From: Curtobacterium sp. MCPF17_002
GTDB taxonomy: Bacteria > Actinomycetota > Actinomycetes > Actinomycetales > Microbacteriaceae
Assembly (NCBI RefSeq): GCF_003234115.2
Contig: NZ_CP126251.1
Coordinates: forward strand, 744,001 to 808,000
Reading direction: 5' to 3'
Length of the DNA: 64,000 nt
How positions within the stretch are numbered: the stretch's first letter is position 1; each line of letters starts with the position of its first letter. This document shows positions 24,509 through 34,197 of the stretch, piece after piece. The notes below the pieces were generated by a model, which saw only the letters and a list, made by a program, of their open reading frames with translations, was not told where the DNA came from and searched no databases. The position numbers were made by a program, and so were the translations under genes.

Positions 24509-24922
24509 ATGACCGAGGTCCCCGTCGTGCGTCCCGAGTGGGGCCGCTTCGCCCCCGACTCCGTCGAGCGCCTGATGCTCGACCACACCGGCGCGGCGTT
24601 CGGGCTGGTCCTCCGCCCCCGCACCGTCGTGCTCGACCGCGCCCGCGTCGAGGTCGAGGGCATCGACGAGGCGGACAGCGTCGTCGTCCAGCTCGTGGCG
24701 AACCAGGGCGCCTACAAGCCGGCCTGGCGCAACAAGGTGATGGCGGACCTGTTCAAGCTGCTGTGGCTGCGGCAGAGCATCCCCGGGTCTCCGCGGGCCG
24801 TGCTCGTCGTCGCGGAGCCCGCGGCCCGGGCGCTCGCCGGGTGGGTGGCGGTCGCCGCCGCCGACCTCGGGGTCGAGGTGCTCGTCTGGGACGGTGCCGC
24901 TGCCGTGCCCTCCACGCGCTGA
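24509..24922 (+). CDS. Hypothetical protein
   Basis: 137 residues starting MTEVPVVRPEWGRFAPD. It contains AAFGLVLRPRTVVLDRARVE, NQGAYKPAWRNKVMADLFKL and AVLVVAEPAARALAGWVA, an alternating strand/helix pattern that could be a small nuclease-like or Rossmann-type fold. No named family is recognised. A -10-like TACACT at 24497 leaves almost no leader, so the message is probably leaderless. It is not clearly tied to kup, which ends 22 nt upstream. Confidence 0.75.
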   Translation: MTEVPVVRPEWGRFAPDSVERLMLDHTGAAFGLVLRPRTVVLDRARVEVEGIDEADSVVVQLVANQGAYKPAWRNKVMADLFKLLWLRQSIPGSPRAVLVVAEPAARALAGWVAVAAADLGVEVLVWDGAAAVPSTR

Positions 24923-25104: not shown

Positions 25105-25932
25105 ATGACCACATCAGCGGTCCGGTTGGACGCCGTGCGCAAGGTGTACGGCAGCGGCCCCGGAGCCATGGTGGCGCTCGACGACGTCGAGCTCACGATC
25201 GAGCCCGGGCGGTTCGTCTCGCTCATCGGCCCGAGCGGATGCGGGAAGTCGACGCTGCTCCGACTCGTCGCGGGGCTCGAACCCGCCGACCACGGCGACG
25301 TCCGGGTGCACGGTGTCAGCCCGGCCGAGGCGTGCGCGGCGAAGCTCATCGGGCTCGTGCCGCAGACCCCCGCGCTGCTGCCCTGGCTGACCGTGCTGCA
25401 GAACGTCACCCTGGCCGGCCGGGTGAACCCCGGTGCCGGGCGACGACGCGCGGCCATCGACGACCTCGAGGAGCGCGCCACCGGCAACGGTCCGGACATG
25501 CGGGAGCTGCTCCGGATGGCGGGACTCGGCGAGGCGATGGAGAAGCTCCCCGCGCAGCTGTCCGGCGGGATGCAGCAGCGCGCCGCGATCGTGCGGGCGT
25601 TCGGGCTCCGGCCGGACGTGCTCCTCATGGACGAACCGTTCTCCGCGCTCGACGAGTTCACCCGCGAGAGCCTGCAGGACCAGCTCCTCGACCTCTGGGA
25701 CGAGCTGCGCACCACGGTGCTGTTCGTCACGCACTCGGTCTCCGAGGCCGTGCGGATGTCCGACACGGTCATCGTGATGGCCCCGAGCCCCGGCCGGATC
25801 GTCGACGTCATCGACATCGACCTGCCCCGGCCGCGCAACCAGCGCCTGTTCGAGGAACGGCGCTTCCACGAGTACGAGGACCTCGTCCGCACGCGGCTGC
25901 ACAGCGCGTGGCGGACGACGGACGCGGCCTGA
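25105..25932 (+). CDS. ABC transporter ATPase (nitrate/sulfonate/taurine type)
   Basis: 275 residues, start ATG behind GGAGG. Walker A is GPSGCGKST, the signature LSGGMQQRAAIVRA, and Walker B VLLMDEPFSALDEFTRE, then the switch His in FVTHSVSEAVRMSD. DEFTRE and the PSPGRIVDVIDIDLPRPR ending are typical of SsuB/TauB/NrtD importers. It energises uptake with the permease and lipoprotein encoded next. It is first in a nine-kilobase set of genes for flavin-dependent oxidation. Confidence 0.93.
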   Translation: MTTSAVRLDAVRKVYGSGPGAMVALDDVELTIEPGRFVSLIGPSGCGKSTLLRLVAGLEPADHGDVRVHGVSPAEACAAKLIGLVPQTPALLPWLTVLQNVTLAGRVNPGAGRRRAAIDDLEERATGNGPDMRELLRMAGLGEAMEKLPAQLSGGMQQRAAIVRAFGLRPDVLLMDEPFSALDEFTRESLQDQLLDLWDELRTTVLFVTHSVSEAVRMSDTVIVMAPSPGRIVDVIDIDLPRPRNQRLFEERRFHEYEDLVRTRLHSAWRTTDAA

Positions 25933-25945
25933 GGGAGACGGCACG

Positions 25946-26794
25946 ATGAGCGCGACCACGACGTCCACGTCCACCCCCGAAGCGATCGCCGCCACCGCCG
26001 AGGCCGAACGACGCACCATCCGCCGACCCGTCCCCGGATGGCTCCGGCCGTCCGTCTGGCTGCCCCTCGTCGTGATGCTCGCCGTCCTCGCGGTGCTCTG
26101 GCAGATCGGCGCCACCGCGATGCCGTACCTGCTGCCGCCGCTGCCCGCGGTGGGGGAGTCCCTCGCGACGCAGTTGCCCTACTACCTGCAGAACGCCGGC
26201 ATCACGCTGATCGAGTCCCTCGTCGGCCTCGGCATCGGGTTCGTCGCCGCGTTCGTCCTCGCGGTGCTGACGAGCGAGCTGGCGATCGTCCGCCGCGCGG
26301 TGATGCCGATCGCCATCGTCCTCAACGTGACCCCGCTCGTCGCGATCGCCCCGGCGCTCGTGGTGGCGTTCGGGTTCGGGCCGCTGCCGAAGCTCGTCAT
26401 CACGGCGCTCATCTGCTTCTTCCCGATCCTCATCAACACCGCGGCCGGACTCCGGTCGGTGCCGCAGCCGGTGCTGCAGGTGTACCGGACGATCAACGCC
26501 TCCCGCTTCGAGATGCTCGTCCACCTGCGGGTGCCGAACGCCCTGCCGTTCGTGTTCGCCGCGCTGCGGATCGTGTTCCCGCTGTCGATCATCGGCGCCG
26601 TCGTCGCGGAGCTCTCCGCCTCCGGGTCCACGGGCGGCCTCGGGACGGTGATCAGCACCGCGTCGTCGATGAACCAGCTCGCCGTGGTCTACGCGGCCAT
26701 CGCGATCCTCGCGGTGATGGGCGTCGTGCTGCTCGGACTCATCACGCTCGTCGAGCGACGCGTCCTGCACTGGCACCGCACCGCGAACGACTGA
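25946..26794 (+). CDS. ABC transporter permease (nitrate/sulfonate/taurine type)
   Basis: 282 residues with about six membrane helices and a Thr-rich cytoplasmic N-terminus. The EAA loop reads YRTINASRFEMLVHLRVPNALPFVF in two halves, the coupling segment to the ATPase. Two copies would form the pore for the substrate bound by the lipoprotein downstream. It starts 13 nt after the ATPase gene, so is translated from the same message. The 151-nt gap after it carries a half-copy of the GGCCTGGAGGC element. Confidence 0.92.
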   Translation: MSATTTSTSTPEAIAATAEAERRTIRRPVPGWLRPSVWLPLVVMLAVLAVLWQIGATAMPYLLPPLPAVGESLATQLPYYLQNAGITLIESLVGLGIGFVAAFVLAVLTSELAIVRRAVMPIAIVLNVTPLVAIAPALVVAFGFGPLPKLVITALICFFPILINTAAGLRSVPQPVLQVYRTINASRFEMLVHLRVPNALPFVFAALRIVFPLSIIGAVVAELSASGSTGGLGTVISTASSMNQLAVVYAAIAILAVMGVVLLGLITLVERRVLHWHRTAND

Positions 26795-26945
26795 CGCCCC
26801 TCCCTCCTTTCCTCCCTCCCCATCCGCGGACGTGACCCGCCCCGGAGACCTGTGTCGTGCCTCCAGGCCGTCACCCGCAGCACCATCTCGCAAGCGCACC
26901 CCGCACCCGCCCCTGCACCACCCATCCCTTCCCACAGGAGTGACC

Positions 26946-28052
26946 ATGCAGCACCGCACCAAGGCCGCACTCGCGGCCCTCGCCACCGCAGCCGTGGCCC
27001 TCGCGCTCACCGGATGCAGCGCCGGCTCGAGTGCCGGCGCCTCGTCCGAGGGCAAAGCGATCTCGTCCGAGCGCTGCCAGCAGAACAAGGACGCCGGGAA
27101 GATCACCTACCTGTCCGGCTACCAGTACCAGTCGTCGGCGTCGATCCTCGAGTACATCGCGGCCGACGAGCTCGGCTACTTCAAGGACCTCTGCCTCGAC
27201 GTGCAGCTCAAGCCGGGCTCCGGTGACACCGCGCAGAACACGAAGCTCCTCGCCAGCGGCCAGGCGACCGTCTCCGCCGTCGCCGAGCAGGACCTCATCC
27301 AGGCCCGTGCGAACGGCATCGACATCACCGGGATCTCGTCGTACTCGAACGCCGGACTCGACGTCCTCATGACGAACGGCGACATCACCGACCTCAAGCA
27401 GCTCGACGGCCAGGTCGTCGGGCACAAGGGCTACGTGCCCGCCGCGGTCGAGGCGATGATGGTGAAGGCCGGCGTCGACTGGGACTCCCTCAAGCTCGTG
27501 AAGGAGGGCTACGACCCCTCGGTCCTGCCCCGCAAGCAGAACGGGCTCGAGGCCCTCACCGGCTTCGTCTCGAACGAGCCGAACCTGCTCAAGGCCGCCG
27601 GTGACGACGTCACGGTGTGGCAGCCGGTCGACTACGACATCCCGGCGTCGCTCGGCGCGATGGCCGTGAACCCGGCGTTCGCGAAGGCACACCCCACCGC
27701 GGTCGAGGACGTCCTCCGCGCCGCGCTCCACGCCTACGACTTCTGCTCCTCGAGCGACGCGAAGGTGAAGCAGTGCGTCGGGTACGCCGCGAAGCTCTCC
27801 GGTGCGACCTACGACACCGCCCAGAACGCGAAGATCTGGACCACCGAGACGAAGGTCGTCGCGGACAACCCGACGCCCGGGCAGCCGCTCGGCGGCGTCG
27901 ACCCGGCGAACGTCACGAAGCTCGTCGACATGCTCCACGAGTTCGACATCGTCGACGACTCGGTCACTTCCGACGACGCGTCGAAGTGGTTCACGAACGA
28001 GTACGTCGACGCGGTGTACGACGGCGGGAAGCTCGTGTGGCCGGCGCCGTGA
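26946..28052 (+). CDS. ABC substrate-binding lipoprotein (NMT1/SsuA-like)
   Basis: 368 residues. The signal peptide ends in the lipobox LTGC with Cys24 as the lipid-modified residue. The mature protein resembles periplasmic binders for sulfonates, taurine or thiamine-pyrimidine precursors: LSGYQYQSSASILEYIAADE, LGYFKDLCLDVQL, KLLASGQATVSAVAEQDL, DLKQLDGQVVGHKGYVP. ATG 26946 lies six nt after CAGGAG. The ligand cannot be read directly; the context suggests a heteroaromatic or flavin-related compound. Confidence 0.88.
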   Translation: MQHRTKAALAALATAAVALALTGCSAGSSAGASSEGKAISSERCQQNKDAGKITYLSGYQYQSSASILEYIAADELGYFKDLCLDVQLKPGSGDTAQNTKLLASGQATVSAVAEQDLIQARANGIDITGISSYSNAGLDVLMTNGDITDLKQLDGQVVGHKGYVPAAVEAMMVKAGVDWDSLKLVKEGYDPSVLPRKQNGLEALTGFVSNEPNLLKAAGDDVTVWQPVDYDIPASLGAMAVNPAFAKAHPTAVEDVLRAALHAYDFCSSSDAKVKQCVGYAAKLSGATYDTAQNAKIWTTETKVVADNPTPGQPLGGVDPANVTKLVDMLHEFDIVDDSVTSDDASKWFTNEYVDAVYDGGKLVWPAP

Positions 28053-28102
28053 CCCCGGCACTGACCACCGACGGCGCAACGACGACGAGAGGCGAGGCCA
28101 CC

Positions 28103-29167
28103 ATGCCCGCGAAGGAGTACGGCATCTTCCTGCCGATCGGCAACGGCGGTTGGATGCTGTCGACCACGGCACCCCACCCCGAGGCCACCTACGCGTGGAA
28201 CCGCCGTGCGGCCGTCCACGCCGAGGAGATCGGGCTGGACTTCGTGATGTCGATGGCGAAGTGGCGCGGCTTCGGCGGCACCACCGACCACTGGGGTCGC
28301 TCGCTCGAGTCGATGACCATGATGGCCGGCATCGCCGAGGCCACCGAACGGGTGAAGATCTGGGCGACGATGCACGCCAACGTCCACAACCCCGCCGTCG
28401 CCGCGAAGATGTACACGACGCTGCAGGACATCTCCGGCGGCCGGGCCGGCATGAACATCGTCAACGGTGCCTACGCCGCCGAGTTCGAGCAGTTCGGGAT
28501 CTGGGACGCGGCCCTCAGCCACGCCGACCGGTACCGGATGACCGAGCTGTGGACCGAGGCCGTCACGCGCCTCTGGACCGAGGACAGCGTCACCATGCAC
28601 ACGCCGTACTTCGACCTCGACGCGTGCGAGTCCCGGCCGCACCCGTCGAGCCGACCGACGATCATCAGCGCCGGCAAGTCCGAGGCGGCGCGGGCGTTCC
28701 AGGCGAAGCACGCCGACGGGGCCTTCCTCGCCGCCGACAGCCTCGACGAGATGCGGGACCTGTCCCGTGACGTCCACGACCGTGCCGCCGCCGAGGGGCG
28801 CGAGTGCCGCACCTACTCGATGCTCACGGTCGTGCAGGACGAGACCGACGCGGCCGCGCAGCGGAAGGTCCGCGAGTGGGGTGTCGGCGTCGACCGCGAG
28901 GCCCTCGCGTCGATGCGGGCGTCGTGGGGTGTGCCCGCCGAGCAGGCCCGGGCGTGGGCGGACGGGGCCGCGGGTGAGGACGCGTTCCAGACGGCGTACG
29001 TCGCCGGGTCCGCCGAGACCGTGACGGAGCACATCGAGTACATCGTCGACCGTGGCGAGCTCGACGGACTCATGCTGATCTTCCCCGAGTACGACCAGGA
29101 CATGGTGCGGTTCGGGGAGTCGGTCCTGCCGGCGCTCCGGCAGCACGACGCGGCGGTGCTCCGATGA
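28103..29167 (+). CDS. RutA-like luciferase-family flavin monooxygenase
   Basis: 354 residues (ATG 28103; an in-frame GTG at 28049 would overlap the lipoprotein stop by 4 nt). The N-terminus MPAKEYGIFLPIGNGGWML closely follows RutA, the FMN-dependent pyrimidine oxygenase that opens the uracil ring. FVMSMAKWRGFGGTTDHWG, LQDISGGRAGMNIVNGAY and a Tyr/Asp-rich helix (HADRYRMTELWTEAV) also match. A likely reaction is oxidative opening of an amide ring in a heterocycle. It needs reduced FMN, which the flavin reductase at 33044 could supply. It overlaps the next gene as ATGA. Confidence 0.85.
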   Translation: MPAKEYGIFLPIGNGGWMLSTTAPHPEATYAWNRRAAVHAEEIGLDFVMSMAKWRGFGGTTDHWGRSLESMTMMAGIAEATERVKIWATMHANVHNPAVAAKMYTTLQDISGGRAGMNIVNGAYAAEFEQFGIWDAALSHADRYRMTELWTEAVTRLWTEDSVTMHTPYFDLDACESRPHPSSRPTIISAGKSEAARAFQAKHADGAFLAADSLDEMRDLSRDVHDRAAAEGRECRTYSMLTVVQDETDAAAQRKVREWGVGVDREALASMRASWGVPAEQARAWADGAAGEDAFQTAYVAGSAETVTEHIEYIVDRGELDGLMLIFPEYDQDMVRFGESVLPALRQHDAAVLR

Positions 29168-29955
29168 GCGGCGCGGCTCCGGCGGGCGCCGCCCCGGCGG
29201 GCGCGGCTCCGGCGGGCGCGGCCCCGGGGGGCGCGGCCCCGGCGGGCGGCGCGGCGCGCGATCCGCGTCTCGTCCGTCTGCAGGCCGGCGGTGCTCCGGC
29301 ACTCGTCGTCGTCGACGTCCAGCGTGACTTCGGTGAGCCGTCGCGGATCGCGCCGTACGGTCTCGACGACGCGGCGTCCGCCGCGGTCGACGCCGCGATC
29401 GACCGGATCGGCTCCCTCGTCGACGAGGCCCGAGCGGCCGGCGTCCCCGTCGTCTGGGTCGAACTCGGCAGCGACCCGGCCGCCCCGTGGCGGTCGAGCG
29501 CCTGGCTGCGCGGCGGCGACCCGGACGGGCCGATGGCCGAGGACGAACCGTGCGTGCTCGGCACCTCGGGTGCCGAGTGGTACCGGACGACGCCCGCCCC
29601 CGGCGAGACCCGCGTCGTCAAGCGCGGCTACAGCGGGTTCCTCGGGACCGACCTGGAGGCGCGACTCACCGCCGCCGGGATCGGCTGGCTGACCGTCGTG
29701 GGACTCACGAGCGAGTGCTGCGTCTTCGCGACCGCGCAGGACGCGATGCAGCTCGGTTGGCCGGTCGTCGTCCCACGGGACGCGACGGCGGCGTACGACG
29801 TCGACGTGCACGAGGCCGCGCTCACCATGATCGGGCTCAACGTCGGTGTCGTCACCGACGCCGACGAGACCGTGGACCTGTGGCACGCGGCAGCGACCGA
29901 CGGCGCGGCGGCGGCGGCCGGCACGGCCGGTCCGGCGGGGGTGGGTGCCCGATGA
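29164..29955 (+). CDS. Isochorismatase-family cysteine hydrolase (RutB-like)
   Basis: 263 residues. The catalytic triad is visible: Asp51 in VVVDVQRDFG, Lys near 151 in VVKRGYSGFLG, and Cys near 184 in GLTSECCVFATAQDAM. Members hydrolyse amides, ureido acids or N-carbamoyl compounds; RutB does so on the RutA product. Residues 2-31 are a low-complexity GAAPA repeat encoded by GC-rich near-identical units and unlikely to be folded. Overlaps of 4 nt with both flanking oxygenase genes imply coupled synthesis and one pathway. Confidence 0.87.
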   Translation: MSGAAPAGAAPAGAAPAGAAPGGAAPAGGAARDPRLVRLQAGGAPALVVVDVQRDFGEPSRIAPYGLDDAASAAVDAAIDRIGSLVDEARAAGVPVVWVELGSDPAAPWRSSAWLRGGDPDGPMAEDEPCVLGTSGAEWYRTTPAPGETRVVKRGYSGFLGTDLEARLTAAGIGWLTVVGLTSECCVFATAQDAMQLGWPVVVPRDATAAYDVDVHEAALTMIGLNVGVVTDADETVDLWHAAATDGAAAAAGTAGPAGVGAR

Positions 29956-31286
29956 GCGGCATGCACCTCGCCTACGACCTGTCCTTCACCCACACCGAGG
30001 GACGCTGGGCAGCCCCGGGCAGCTGGGTCGGGCAGGACTTCCCCGACGTCCGCATGTACATGGAGCTGGCCCGGACGGCCGAACGCGCCGGCGTCGACAT
30101 GCTGTTCTTCGGCGACGGGTCCGGCGTGCCGAGCACCTGGCGCGGCAGCATCGACCCCGCCGTCGAGTGGGGGATCCAGTGGCCGCGGCAGGACATGTCC
30201 CCGGTCATCGCGGCGATGTCGACCGTCACCGACCACATCGGGTTCGGCCTCACCTACTCGTCGACGTTCATGCACCCGTTCTACGTCGCGCGGCTGCTCA
30301 ACTCGCTCGACCACGTCACCGGCGGCCGGATGGCGTTCAACGTCGTCGCCTCGTCACGGGGTGCGGACGCCGCGAACTACGGCTCCGACCACCTCGTCGA
30401 CCACGACGCCCGGTACGAGCGGATGGAGGAGTTCATCGGCGTCTGCCGGGACCTCTGGGACTCCGTCGCGCCGGACGCCATCGTGCGCGACCGCACCACC
30501 GGGCGCTTCGCCGACCCCGCCGGCGTGCACCCGATCGACCACGACGGCCGGTTCTTCAAGGTCCGCGGACCGCTCGCGAGCGTCCCGAGCCCGCAGACCC
30601 ACCCGGTCGTCGTGCAGGCCGGCAACTCGCCCCGGGGGATCGCCGCGAGTGCGTCCTTCGCCGACCTGGTGTTCGGCTTCGGCGCGAGCCTCGCCGGGCA
30701 GCGCCGGCACCGGGACGCCCTCGACGCCGCACTCGTCGACACCGGACGGGACCCGGCAGCGGTCGGGATCCTCTGGGCCACGCAGGTGATCGTCGGCGGC
30801 ACCGACGCCGAGGCCACCGCACGACGCGACTCGCTGCTGTCGTTCTGGAACCGGGAGGCCGTCGGCACCTTCATCTCCCACAACGCCGGCTACGACTTCT
30901 CCACGCTGCCGGAGCGGTTCCGGCTCGGCGAGCTCCGCGACGAGATCGTCGCGGCGAACGCGAGCCCCGCGGGCCTCGTCGGCAGCCTCGTCGCCGAGTT
31001 CGGTGAGGAGCACTGCATGGACCGCGACGAGTTCTTCGAGCACGGTTGGCGTGCGGCGACCGGGCTCGACCACATGCTCGTCGGTGACGCCGCGGGCGTG
31101 GCGGACGCGCTCGAGGAGAACTTCGCGGCCACCGGCGGACGCGGCGGCTACATGCTCTCCAGCCCGCTCGGCATGCCCGCCGGGTTCGCCGACCTCAGCG
31201 AACTGCTCGTGCCGGAGCTCCGCGGGCGCGGTGCCCTCGCCCCGCGGTACCCGGGGACGACGCTCCGCCAGAACCTGGCGGTGTGA
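29952..31286 (+). CDS. LLM-class flavin monooxygenase (NtaA/DszA/RcaE type)
   Basis: 444 residues (MSGMHLAYDLSFTHTEGRW). The NtaA/SnaA/DszA branch of the luciferase superfamily is indicated by RTAERAGVDMLFFGDG, NSLDHVTGGRMAFNVVAS, DHDARYERMEEFIGVCRDLW and HPVVVQAGNSPRGIAAS. These are two-component enzymes that use FMNH2 from a separate reductase. The branch includes dibenzothiophene-sulfone, nitrilotriacetate and, as I recall, riboflavin-cleaving (RcaE) oxygenases. The flavokinase and flavin reductase in this operon make a flavin substrate plausible but unproven. Confidence 0.85.
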   Translation: MSGMHLAYDLSFTHTEGRWAAPGSWVGQDFPDVRMYMELARTAERAGVDMLFFGDGSGVPSTWRGSIDPAVEWGIQWPRQDMSPVIAAMSTVTDHIGFGLTYSSTFMHPFYVARLLNSLDHVTGGRMAFNVVASSRGADAANYGSDHLVDHDARYERMEEFIGVCRDLWDSVAPDAIVRDRTTGRFADPAGVHPIDHDGRFFKVRGPLASVPSPQTHPVVVQAGNSPRGIAASASFADLVFGFGASLAGQRRHRDALDAALVDTGRDPAAVGILWATQVIVGGTDAEATARRDSLLSFWNREAVGTFISHNAGYDFSTLPERFRLGELRDEIVAANASPAGLVGSLVAEFGEEHCMDRDEFFEHGWRAATGLDHMLVGDAAGVADALEENFAATGGRGGYMLSSPLGMPAGFADLSELLVPELRGRGALAPRYPGTTLRQNLAV

Positions 31287-31287
31287 G

Positions 31288-33000
31288 GTGACCCCGGCCC
31301 GTCGGTGGCTCGCGCTCGGCGGGCTCTGCCTCGGCTTCTTCATGCTGCTGCTCGACAGCACGATCGTGTCCGTGGCCCTGCCCGCCGTCGCCCGGGACCT
31401 GCACGCCGACGCGTCGACGTCGGTGTGGGTGAACAGCGCCTACCTGTTCGCCTTCGCCGTCCCGCTCCTCGTCGCCGGTCGGCTCGGCGACCGGTACGGG
31501 CACCGCCGGGTCTACCTGCTCGGGCTCGCCGTCTTCACCGTCGCCTCGGTCGGCTGCGCACTGGCACCCGGCATCGGTGCCCTCATCGCCTGGCGGGCCG
31601 TGCAGGGGGTCGGCGCCGCGCTGCTGACGCCGCAGTGCCTCACCGTCATCCGGTCGCTGTTCGACCCGCCGCGGCTGGCCGTCGCGCTCGCCGTCTGGAG
31701 TGCGGGCGGCGGGGCGGCGACGGTCGCGGGGCCGATCGTCGGCGGTGTCCTCGTCGAGGCGTGGGGCTGGCCGTCGGTGTTCCTCGTGAACGTGCCGGTC
31801 GGGATCGTCACCGCGATCGTCGTCCTCCGCTTCGTCCCGCTGTCCCGGCGCGTGCGGGTCCCGCTGCCGCTGCCCGCGGTCGTCGGGGTCACCGCCGGGG
31901 TGCTCGCCGTCGTCGTCGGGGTCCAGGGCACCGGGGACGGCGTCCTCGCCGAGCCGCTGCCCCGCATCGCGCTCGTGCTGCTCGGCGCCCTCGTCGTCGC
32001 CGCGGTGCTCGTCGTGCAGCGTCGGGCCGGCGACCGGGCCCTCGTGCCGCTCGGACTCTTCCGCGACCACGGCTTCGTCACCGGGTCCTGGGGTGCGGCG
32101 GCCGCGTCGTTCTGCGTCGGGTCGGCGCCGATCCCGCTCATGCTCGACCTGCAGCGCGGGCGCGGGCTCGGCGCGGGGGAGGCCGCCCTGGTCCTCGTCC
32201 CGATGGGCATCGCGTGCCTCGCCGCCGCCCCGTTCGTCGGGCGGCTCACGAACACGGCCGGACCCCGGGTCACGGCGACGGTCGGCGCCGTGCTCCTCGT
32301 CGTGTCCGTGGCGCTGACCGCGGTGCTCGTCGGGTCCGGCGCACCGCTCTGGACGGTCGCTGCGGCGTTCACGGGCTTCGGGTTCGCGAACGCCTTCGTC
32401 TGGTCGCCGTTCTCGCTCGCCGCGGTCCTGCACGGCGACCCCGCCACCATCGGTGCCGCCTCGAGCACCTTCAACACGGTCAAGCAGCTCGGCGCGGTGC
32501 TCGGCAGCACGGCCACCGCGGTCGTGCTCGCCGCGTCGACGGACGCGGTCGCGCTCGGGGTCCTGGCGGTCGCCGCGGTCGGCGCCGTGGTGGCGGCGGC
32601 GCTCCTGCCCGGGCGACCGCGGCCCACCGTGCTCACCGGCGCCGTGGTGCACGGAGCGGGCGTCGGGAACGGCCTCGGCTACCCGACCGCCAACCTGCTG
32701 CCCGACGACGGCGGTCGCGTGCCGGCCGACGGCGTCTACGTCGGGTCGCTCAGCGCGGCGACCTGGTCGGAGGCACGGCACGCCCTCGTGTCGATCGGCA
32801 GCAACAGCACCTTCCCCGACCGCCCGCGGACCGTCGAGGTCCACGTGCTCGACTTCGCCGGCGACCTCTACGGCACGCCCGTCGAACTCACCGTCGGGGC
32901 GCGGATCCGCCGCCAGCGCACCTTCTCCGGGCCGGACGCCCTCGTGGTCGCCATGCGCGACGACGAGCGCCGGGCCCGGGCCCTGCTCACCCGCCCCTGA
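31288..33000 (+). CDS. MFS transporter fused to a riboflavin kinase domain
   Basis: 570 residues with a GTG start 1 nt after the oxygenase stop. Residues 1-445 form a 14-helix-type MFS permease (LLLDSTIVSVALPAVARDL, AGRLGDRYGHRRVYLLG, NTVKQLGAVLGS). Residues 447-570 are a complete flavokinase domain: GAVVHGAGVGNGLGYPTANL with the PTAN metal site, DGVYVGSL, SIGSNSTFPD, and VEVHVLDFAGDLYG with the catalytic-type Glu. The usual FAD synthetase half of RibF is absent. The architecture suggests riboflavin is phosphorylated as it enters, trapping it as FMN. I know of no described protein of this form. Confidence 0.9.
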   Translation: MTPARRWLALGGLCLGFFMLLLDSTIVSVALPAVARDLHADASTSVWVNSAYLFAFAVPLLVAGRLGDRYGHRRVYLLGLAVFTVASVGCALAPGIGALIAWRAVQGVGAALLTPQCLTVIRSLFDPPRLAVALAVWSAGGGAATVAGPIVGGVLVEAWGWPSVFLVNVPVGIVTAIVVLRFVPLSRRVRVPLPLPAVVGVTAGVLAVVVGVQGTGDGVLAEPLPRIALVLLGALVVAAVLVVQRRAGDRALVPLGLFRDHGFVTGSWGAAAASFCVGSAPIPLMLDLQRGRGLGAGEAALVLVPMGIACLAAAPFVGRLTNTAGPRVTATVGAVLLVVSVALTAVLVGSGAPLWTVAAAFTGFGFANAFVWSPFSLAAVLHGDPATIGAASSTFNTVKQLGAVLGSTATAVVLAASTDAVALGVLAVAAVGAVVAAALLPGRPRPTVLTGAVVHGAGVGNGLGYPTANLLPDDGGRVPADGVYVGSLSAATWSEARHALVSIGSNSTFPDRPRTVEVHVLDFAGDLYGTPVELTVGARIRRQRTFSGPDALVVAMRDDERRARALLTRP

Positions 33001-33043
33001 CCGGGACGGCCGCGACGCGGTCCCACGACACGAGGAGTCCGAC

Positions 33044-33586
33044 ATGCACGACGCGTTCACCGACGACCCGCTCGACATCCGCGAGGCCGCGGCCGAGGTC
33101 CCCTCGGTCGTCGCCGCGATCGCCGCCCGCATCGACGGGGTGCCCGTCGTGATGGTCGCCACGTCCTTCACGGTCGGGGTCTCCCACGACCCGCCGCTCG
33201 TGTCGGTCGCGGTGCAGCACTCCTCCACCACGTGGCCGGACCTCGCCGCTGCCACCGTGCTCGGGCTCTCGGTCCTCGCCGACGTGCACGCGCCGCACAC
33301 CCGGCAGCTCGCGTCTCGGGACCGGGACCGGCGGCTCGACGGGATCGACCACGTCGCCACGGACAGTGGGGCGGTGTTCCTCACCGGGTCGCACACCTGG
33401 CTGGAGTGCACCGTCGAGGACACCCACCGGGCGGGCGACCACGACATCGTCGTGCTGCGGGTGCGCCGGCTTGCGCGCGACCCCGAGCGGGCGGCCCTCG
33501 TCTGGCACCGCCCAGCGCGCCCGGCGCGACCGGCGCGCGAGGCGCGCTCGGGCACGACGCGCACGGTGGTCGCGGCGCCGGCCTGA
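33044..33586 (+). CDS. Flavin reductase domain protein
   Basis: 180 residues, start ATG behind GAGGAG. The FMN-binding split-barrel core is seen in GVPVVMVATSFTVGVSHDPP, VSVAVQHSSTTWPDL, VLGLSVLADVHAPHTRQL and HTWLECTVEDTHRAGDHDIV. Such proteins reduce FMN with NAD(P)H and pass it to two-component oxygenases, here the two luciferase-family enzymes upstream. The last 25 residues are an Ala/Arg/Pro-rich tail outside the fold. It ends the operon; a GGACTGGAGGCGCGG hairpin follows about 50 nt later. Confidence 0.9.
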   Translation: MHDAFTDDPLDIREAAAEVPSVVAAIAARIDGVPVVMVATSFTVGVSHDPPLVSVAVQHSSTTWPDLAAATVLGLSVLADVHAPHTRQLASRDRDRRLDGIDHVATDSGAVFLTGSHTWLECTVEDTHRAGDHDIVVLRVRRLARDPERAALVWHRPARPARPAREARSGTTRTVVAAPA

Positions 33587-33636
33587 CGCGTCCACCCAGC
33601 CCGGCCTGCTGGCGGGTCTCGAAGACGTCACCCCCT

Positions 33637-33850
33637 GACGGACTGGAGGCGCGGTGCCGGCCCGCACCGCGCCTCCAGTCCGGACGTGGTCGCGACCACC
33701 GCACCGACGCAACGTGCGGTGCCGACCCGCCGTCCGGTGCCGGCCGCCGCGCTGTGCCGGGCCGCCGCACAACGGAAGTCACCTCGAACCGCCGCGTCCC
33801 ACGGTTCGGCGTGACTTCCGTTGTGCGCTGCGGCGCACGGCGCTCGCGCC
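33637..33850. repeat. Composite hairpin repeat, copy A
   Basis: A segment of about 210 nt holding a GGACTGGAGGCGCGG hairpin (33640-33681) and a long nested dyad: outer arms GCACAACGGAAGTCAC (33767-33782) and its complement (33811-33826), inner arms CGAACCG/CGGTTCG. A near-identical copy lies at 33995. Copy A carries about 20 extra nt in the middle. The 145 nt between the copies holds no recognised gene. Confidence 0.85.
33640..33681 (+). terminator. GGACTGGAGGCGCGG hairpin after flavin operon
   Basis: Perfect arms GGACTGGAGGCGCGGTGC and the complement around a short CGGCCC loop, 53 nt after the flavin reductase stop. Probably ends the nine-kilobase transcript. Confidence 0.75.
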
Positions 33851-33994
33851 GCGCCGCGGCGGCTTCGCGCAGCTCCGCGAGTGCGGCCAGCGCCTGCCCC
33901 GCGAGCGGTTCGCCGTCGTTCCGGCCCGAGCCGGACCACCGGTCGAAGCCCTGCTTGAGCACGTCACCCCGTGACGGACTGCACGTCATCCCGT

Positions 33995-34197
33995 GACGGA
34001 CTGGAGGCGCGGTACCGGCCCGCACCGCGCCTCCAGTCCGGACGTGGTCGCGACCACCGCACCGACGGAACGTCCGATGCCGGGCCGCCGCGCTGTGCCG
34101 ACCCGCCGCACAACGGAAGTCACCTCGAACCGCAGCGTCCCGCGGTTCGGCGTGACTTCCGTTGTGCGCTGCGGCGCACGGCGCTCGCACCGGGCCG
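33995..34197. repeat. Composite hairpin repeat, copy B
   Basis: A direct repeat of copy A with the same two hairpins (33998-34039, and outer arms 34108-34123 / 34152-34167). It runs up to the stop codon of the cation transporter gene on the minus strand. The two copies make this 610-nt gene gap unusually rich in secondary structure. Confidence 0.85.
33998..34039 (-). terminator. Second GGACTGGAGGCGCGG hairpin
   Basis: Same element as at 33640 with one change in the loop side (GGTACC for GGTGCC). It lies about 160 nt beyond the stop of the minus-strand cation transporter gene, so it can terminate that transcript. Confidence 0.6.

Follow-up and report, generated by a model that had tools for sequence, protein, structure and literature searches.

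A conserved actinobacterial operon with an rca-type importer and RutA- and RutB-like enzymes, a candidate for flavin catabolism

We analyzed a 64,000-nucleotide stretch of DNA from Curtobacterium sp. MCPF17_002 (contig NZ_CP126251.1, positions 744,001 to 808,000; hereafter the window, whose own numbering is used throughout). Eight genes on the + strand at 25105-33586 lie head to tail and form a tightly packed operon. The operon is real and conserved among bacteria of soil and plants, and the recurrence of its six core genes is not due to chance. Judging from its sequences, it may serve to scavenge nitrogen by breaking down a flavin or a closely similar, pyrimidine-fused compound, a proposal to which we give a little under an even chance. 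By membership tests the operon is neither a riboflavin-catabolic (rca) locus nor a rut operon; it appears to join ring-opening enzymes of the rut type to an importer and a cofactor supply of the rca type. No operon of such make-up was found described in the literature searched, mostly at the level of listings.

A sequence-only reading of the window had described a run of genes for an importer, two oxygenases, a hydrolase, a kinase, and a reductase, and Pfam matches located all of them within 25105-33586. The genes for the RutA-like oxygenase, the hydrolase, and the DszA-like oxygenase are joined by ATGA overlaps at 29164-29167 and 29952-29955. The host genome, a single contig of 3.82 Mb, has another flavokinase match at 2.19 Mb. 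The RutA-like protein is 97% identical to that of a Curtobacterium relative, the closest one named.

Conservation was counted in the best 80 of 207 related loci. These counts used fixed distance and identity limits and are too low where contigs end; loci without the hydrolase or the large oxygenase were scored as misses, contig ends included. Genes in the relatives' loci were called with a simple codon-usage script, so their starts are approximate and some frames, such as that of L103 discussed below, may be artifacts. The six core genes occurred together in 58 of the 80 loci. All three importer genes were present in 71, the hydrolase in 67, the large oxygenase in 61, the flavin reductase in 55, and the riboflavin kinase in 20. 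Genera outside Microbacteriaceae that are represented include Streptomyces, Actinoplanes, Nonomuraea, Saccharothrix, Nocardiopsis, and Paenibacillus.

Among 299 Microbacteriaceae genomes, 21 had an ortholog of the large oxygenase at an E value of 1e-100 or better, and 20 of these carried an operon of the window type. The operon is thus somewhat commoner in this family than RcaE, the riboflavin lyase of the rca loci (11 of 299), and it reaches many other actinobacterial families. Inspection of 26 Microbacteriaceae loci showed 19 that keep the RutA-hydrolase-DszA triad and 7 of a second type without such a hydrolase. In the window-type loci (L037-L055, the window excluded) the triad was found in 19 of 19, with the importer directly before it in 15 and a fused transporter and kinase in 3. 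The second-type loci (L056-L062) encode an asparaginase-like protein (7 of 7) and a GntR regulator (6 of 7), and a plasmid of Agrobacterium vitis has an annotated gene set similar to theirs.

The importer and the rca loci

The first three genes encode an ABC (ATP-binding cassette) importer: an ATPase (25105-25932; PF00005), a permease (25946-26794; PF00528), and a substrate-binding lipoprotein of the NMT1/THI5 type (26946-28052; PF09084), which is nearest to the binding protein of the rca loci. The sequence-only reading had called the importer SsuABC-type. This was rejected by the binding-protein scores, the profile matching ThiY at 1e-25 and SsuA at 5e-5 among solved structures, and the permease and the binding protein were closest to the rca importer. 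ThiY, which binds formyl-aminopyrimidine, is the best solved relative of the rca binding protein too.

The rca loci came to light in a search for extra riboflavin kinases, which gave five loci with the order binding protein-ATPase-permease-oxygenase and a kinase nearby. Two of the five oxygenases were tested against solved structures, and they matched RcaE (5w48) at 751 and 825 bits; both are true orthologs. One of these loci, L192, also has a PfkB kinase and PadR (Pfam). RcaE orthologs (at least 67% identity to that of L192) define 11 loci in the 299 Microbacteriaceae genomes (L186-L189, L192, and L194-L199); the importer is present in all 11, PfkB and a flavin reductase in 6 each, and an extra flavokinase in 5. 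Two further RcaE loci lie on plasmids of Maritalea (L208) and Streptomyces (L209). In its public annotation the Maritalea plasmid has the whole rca set, with importer, ribokinase, and riboflavin kinase.

Searches in both directions separated the operon and rca importers from the rest. In 11 genomes the binding-protein profile gave 24 matches, comprising six operon orthologs, a Herbiconiux variant at 406 bits, four rca proteins at 287 to 309 bits, and 13 others at 67.5 bits or less. The rca profile, run in reverse on 296 genomes of the class, found 13 operon-type proteins at 184 to 251 bits and two stand-alone importers at 304 to 319 bits (with one stop inside each match); every other listed match scored 79 or less. 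Eleven of the 13 operon-type proteins lie close to a RutA-like gene, and the other two are in genome G335 on an 11-kb contig without one. For the permease, a search of 11 genomes gave six orthologs, then four rca permeases at 219 to 238 bits, the Herbiconiux variant at 182, and the rest at 136 or less.

In a tree of binding proteins, those of the operon, the rca loci, and Herbiconiux grouped together against six others (100/99), and the protein of Paenibacillus took the outermost place. L202 and L205 were left out of this tree, and the sequences compared did not include RibY; the finer order is unsure because the program warns of long outgroup branches. Identity to the L192 proteins was 53% for the ATPase (versus 42 to 44% to six other ATPases), 47% for the permease, 32% for the binding protein, and 42% for the reductase. 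Of 88 positions constant in the operon binding proteins, 43 are also constant in the rca proteins, and the mean match of five other binding proteins was 29%; this is suggestive only. By these sequence comparisons, with their wide gap to other importers, the importer is rca-type, and it is the main new evidence for the flavin reading.

Stand-alone importers of this family occur in two genomes, G405 and G415. The one in G405 lies some 6 kb downstream from ribBA-ribH, on the same strand, a link that we count as weak because of the housekeeping genes in between, among them hisG, infC, rpmI, and rplT. RibY belongs to the NMT1 type and RibZ to the major facilitator superfamily (MFS). According to an excerpt of PMC4418817, the RibXY system and RibZ are among the known riboflavin transporters.

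The Herbiconiux-type loci (L043, L046, and L050, with L048 cut short) place the RutA-hydrolase-DszA triad beside a divergent cluster. This cluster encodes the binding-protein variant, putative alcohol-dehydrogenase-like and LacI-like proteins, and an oxygenase that is the sister of RcaE in our tree (94/99) at 37% identity.

Oxygenases, hydrolase, and cofactor supply

The RutA-like flavin mononucleotide (FMN) oxygenase (28103-29167; Bac_luciferase domain) forms a specificity group of its own. RutA is its best solved relative (1e-55), which upholds the label given by the sequence-only reading, although the protein stays below the cutoff of the RutA equivalog TIGR03612 (241.2 versus 498.3 bits). 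Excerpts of PMC10005588 describe Thr105 and Asn134 of RutA as lining the oxygen pocket, Trp139 and Glu292 as bordering the substrate (si) side, and the uracil ring as being cut between N3 and C4; flavin-N5 oxygen adducts are reported for RutA, DszA, and HcbA1 in an excerpt of PMC7662398. We mapped the RutA residue numbers on the solved chain by an offset of 18, at which all four letters fit. Thr105 and Asn134 correspond to T89 and N118 of the window protein and were invariant in 27 and in 21 aligned sequences. At the position of Trp139 the window protein has Ala, and the window group has Ala or Ser, as do its proteobacterial relatives; Ser also occurs in a Rhizobium protein that is more distant, whereas Trp is kept in an annotated RutA, in L183 of the host, and in the second operon type. 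The Glu292 position fell in a gap in one alignment and opposite Ala in another, and it says little because an annotated RutA itself has Gln there. Because Thr105 and Asn134 are kept and Trp139 is lost, we read the enzyme as probably sharing the oxygen chemistry of RutA and as having a wider substrate pocket, as might be required for a larger substrate.

L183, at about 3.216 Mb in the host genome, is another RutA-type gene, whose product is nearer to genuine RutA (59% identity to an annotated RutA). Its neighbors encode a different ABC importer, a carbon-nitrogen hydrolase, an amidase, an isochorismatase-type hydrolase, and flavin reductases.

The next gene (29164-29955; PF00857) encodes a cysteine hydrolase of the isochorismatase family that resembles RutB and biuret hydrolase. 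Asp, Lys, and Cys form the catalytic triad of isochorismatase-like amidohydrolases, and in the operon hydrolases D51, K153, and C186, as well as a YSGF element, were invariant in 20 sequences. The best solved relatives include several unassigned cysteine hydrolases together with N-carbamoylsarcosine amidase, biuret hydrolase, and RutB, which act on carbamoyl groups; nicotinamidases and isochorismatases ranked lower. The earlier description of a RutB-like hydrolase agrees with this company and with the intact triad, though the cutoff of the RutB equivalog TIGR03614 was not reached (59.1 versus 377.95 bits). At 29164-29270 the start of the gene encodes a low-complexity stretch of the GAAPA type not seen in the relatives aligned; it likely reflects a mis-set start, with the true one perhaps later, or an expanding repeat.

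The large oxygenase (29952-31286; Bac_luciferase domain) is an FMN oxygenase of the NtaA/DszA family, scoring 356.5 bits against TIGR03860 (NtaA/DmoA; cutoff, 279.7). Its best solved relatives were DszA (9e-63), LadA, and DmoA, the dimethylsulfide oxygenase; RcaE matched at 6e-41 and ranked ninth in two lists. In a tree with true RcaE proteins it fell, together with the second operon type, in a separate clade (100/100), and the host genome had no RcaE ortholog at 1e-100. The separate clade and the weak score reject RcaE orthology. Of the DszA/RcaE-like label in the sequence-only reading, the likeness to DszA stood and the special likeness to RcaE did not. The tree was built without DszA or SsuD sequences, and the distance from both rests on search scores.

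These ranks bear on the possibility that the operon scavenges organosulfur compounds, that is, a sulfone or a sulfonate. DszA, LadA, and dimethylsulfide oxygenase head the solved relatives of the large oxygenase, and SfnG comes next after RutA for the small one. However, the binding protein is far from SsuA, the hydrolase is of the carbamoyl type, and the cutoffs for SsuD (79.6 versus 518.2 bits) and SfnG were not reached. Cysteine plus methionine was not reduced in four core proteins (means of 2.4 to 4.7%, versus 2.1% in 1,152 neighboring proteins), and a sulfur-starvation signature was rejected for that reason. An assignment of both oxygenases to alkanesulfonate or sulfone clades, named beforehand as the outcome that would speak against flavins, was not obtained: the small one is RutA-like, and the large one has DszA as its best solved relative. 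We consider organosulfur scavenging very unlikely.

A DHA2-type MFS transporter and a riboflavin kinase are encoded in one frame (31288-33000; PF07690 plus PF01687), as the sequence-only reading had said in describing a transporter-tethered kinase, and the flavin reductase that it had named matches PF01613 (Flavin_Reduct; 33044-33586). The kinase scored 101.5 bits against PF01687 (cutoff, 19.6), and its PTAN and N-x-TF motifs, which we take to be those of riboflavin kinases, are intact. In a tree, 19 operon kinases form one clade (98/94) with the rca kinases next to it at weak support (73/85); fragments (L187 and L188) and near copies (L067, L069, L072, L122, and L037) were left out. The setting of the kinase varies. 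It is fused to the DHA2-type transporter in many loci, follows another MFS gene in four Actinoplanes relatives, and comes right after the RutA-like gene or the hydrolase gene in two Amycolatopsis; in Actinosynnema (L100:13070-15436), transporter, kinase, and flavin reductase share one 788-residue frame. The arrangement of kinase and reductase points to a supply of FMN and reduced FMN (FMNH2), and the presence of the kinase does not prove riboflavin to be the substrate.

More than one flavokinase match was found in 15 of the 299 Microbacteriaceae genomes, four of which are operon carriers with the fusion. Two low-quality genomes (G094 and G176) were left out of the inspection. The other nine gave 10 extra kinase loci, of which five were rca-type, one (L191) was near NtaA-family oxygenases, and four (L184, L185, L190, and L193) were neither. 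In L191 a stand-alone riboflavin kinase lies one gene from a run of five NtaA/DszA-family oxygenases.

Substrate and route

The third ring of flavins is a uracil-like pyrimidinedione, and a RutA/RutB-type pair would fit its opening. In the route that we propose, the rca-type importer would, by its kinship, bring in riboflavin, lumichrome, or a flavin-like compound. The flavin reductase, as in its family, would make FMNH2, and the kinase, where present, would convert riboflavin to FMN for the two oxygenases. With its oxygen-pocket residues kept and Trp139 lost, the RutA-like enzyme might use an N5-oxygen flavin adduct to cleave an amide of the pyrimidinedione ring, and the hydrolase, its catalytic triad kept, could take off the carbamoyl group as CO2 and ammonia. 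The NtaA/DszA-type enzyme may then oxidize the remaining product, perhaps removing a side chain or a carboxylate, and the MFS transporter might export what is left or bring in riboflavin. The ring would go first and the side chain later, an order that resembles the Pseudomonas RF route rather than that of RcaE. Several Nocardiopsis and Actinacidiphila loci have the importer and the RutA-like gene with neither the hydrolase nor the large oxygenase nearby, and such loci suggest that the RutA-like step comes first. In its most far-reaching form, which we consider less likely than not, the proposal is that Streptomyces, Curtobacterium, Leifsonia, Actinoplanes, and others have one more aerobic pathway of flavin degradation, in which an rca-type transporter imports riboflavin or lumichrome, a RutA-type enzyme opens the pyrimidine ring oxidatively, and a RutB-type carbamoyl hydrolase and an NtaA-type oxygenase follow.

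The reverse order would make this an rca-like locus in which the DszA-like enzyme takes the role of RcaE, removing the ribityl chain first to give lumichrome, on which the RutA/RutB pair would then act. The importer, reductase, and kinase do resemble rca parts, and RcaE and the large oxygenase are members of one broad family, but their clades are separate, and the loci that have the importer and the RutA-like gene with no large oxygenase nearby suggest the opposite order. This version is unlikely.

The comparison with known systems shows what is shared and what is not. With the rca locus of the Microbacterium maritypicum type, the operon has in common a related ABC importer, a flavin reductase, a separate riboflavin kinase, and an NtaA/DmoA-family FMN oxygenase; it differs in having no RcaE ortholog, in that the scan of its eight proteins gave neither PfkB nor PadR, and in adding the RutA-like and RutB-like enzymes and the MFS transporter. 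The absence of a ribokinase, which the sequence-only reading had noted and which Pfam bears out, says little because 5 of the 11 RcaE loci have no PfkB either. With the Rut pathway (RutA, RutB, and RutF) it shares a RutA-type oxygenase with the same oxygen-pocket residues, a RutB-type hydrolase, and a flavin reductase. Unlike that pathway, it falls below the RutA and RutB cutoffs, has lost Trp139, uses an ABC importer instead of RutG, and has no RutC, RutD, or RutE among its eight proteins, and the host has a separate, closer RutA relative in L183. In the ytmI-type operon of Bacillus, the RibR flavokinase stands beside an FMN oxygenase as cofactor supply; that operon serves sulfur salvage with another importer and other enzymes. 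The lum pathway of Nocardioides simplex removes a flavin-type pyrimidine ring and includes a urea-hydrolyzing step, but excerpts of PMC12746152 describe 25 genes and a ring opened hydrolytically by LumH after P450 oxidation, with LumI hydrolyzing the urea part; among the eight operon proteins Pfam found no P450, Rieske, or xanthine-oxidase domain. The same excerpts state that in Pseudomonas RF loss of the ring precedes that of the side chain, by enzymes that are not known, that no strain is known with RcaE beside lumichrome genes, and that lumichrome is a plant and quorum signal (PMC12746152).

The sequence-only reading had proposed a riboflavin or lumichrome degradation system, and this is supported in part. 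The rca-like importer, the reductase (42% identity to an rca reductase), the kinase motifs, and the recurrence of kinases in the operon agree with it; the clade of the large oxygenase, separate from that of RcaE, and a kinase in only 20 of 80 loci do not. Several further observations weigh against flavins as the substrate. The kinase and reductase may simply provide FMN oxygenases with their cofactor, and the kinase is an optional part, being absent from 60 of the 80 loci, although an extra flavokinase is likewise absent from 6 of the 11 RcaE loci. Identity to the rca binding proteins is 31 to 34% and the rca branch is long, so specificity may have shifted; at 32% sequence identity, two related importers need not have a ligand in common. 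We met no assay of an rca importer in the literature, and one of the 13 RcaE loci, that of the Streptomyces plasmid L209, has RcaE, reductase, and kinase but no importer match. No FMN riboswitch was found in the window, in seven rca or operon loci, or in L210-L212; one each was found elsewhere in G000, G182, G195, G405, and G415. The substrates of the rca locus and of this operon may differ, since one genome, G195, has both.

Gene context among relatives points the same way. Among Proteobacteria, the relatives of the RutA-like gene and of the hydrolase gene have an M20-peptidase-like or a hypothetical protein where the large oxygenase would be, a flavin reductase nearby, and an MFS gene or no importer instead of this ABC importer. 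Others of these relatives adjoin SRPBCC and formamidase genes, and Paenibacillus keeps the importer with a peptidase-like protein in place of the large oxygenase. Given these proteobacterial and Paenibacillus contexts, the RutA-like group need not act on flavins.

The same enzymology could thus serve another pyrimidine-type or N-heterocycle, such as a pterin, a thiamin-pyrimidine breakdown product, or a plant alkaloid, with kinase and reductase only keeping FMNH2 available. This possibility deserves serious weight, though we do not hold it to be probable. It gains from the M20-peptidase, SRPBCC, and formamidase contexts and the frequent lack of a kinase, from the rank of ThiY as best solved relative of both the operon and the rca binding proteins, and from a RutR-like regulator in the Paenibacillus locus. 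Against it, the importer is far closer to rca than to the other importers in the genomes searched. Of all the readings we favor that of a flavin substrate, at somewhat less than even chances.

Few gene sets for vitamin B2 breakdown are known. If the flavin reading is true, the operon would be another route of flavin breakdown, with genes not yet linked to flavin degradation, and would supply genes for a ring-first route like that of Pseudomonas RF, reported in 1958. A flavin cofactor would cut a flavin substrate, a new reaction for RutA-type flavoenzymes, and there would be a new control on riboflavin and lumichrome. Even with a different substrate, this is a conserved three-enzyme pathway, and its importer can be tested directly.

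The upstream gene c8 and the downstream repeats

A small gene on the + strand at 24509-24922, c8, which the sequence-only reading had not included, is either a neighbor or the first gene of the operon and encodes a conserved protein of 137 amino acids with no Pfam match. It was near the operon in 65 of the 80 related loci and in 53 of the 58 core operons, across Actinomycetota. Its AlphaFold prediction has a predicted local distance difference test (pLDDT) score of 92. The best Foldseek match was XisH (E value, 1.7e-3), with none at 0.001 or better, and XisH, Cdn1, McrBC, and cap-snatching endonucleases are among the closest solved folds, from which we read the predicted fold as PD-(D/E)XK nuclease-like. 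Gln61, Arg74, Lys83, Trp86, and Trp112 were invariant in 33 sequences. One guess is that c8 is a putative DNA-binding regulator. In L103, c8 and the riboflavin kinase were called in one frame, possibly an artifact of gene calling.

Right behind the operon, at 33625-34197, are two direct repeats (121 nucleotides at 90% and 115 nucleotides at 95%). Both hold near-perfect inverted arms and are perhaps elements of the repetitive extragenic palindrome (REP) or bacterial interspersed mosaic element (BIME) type.

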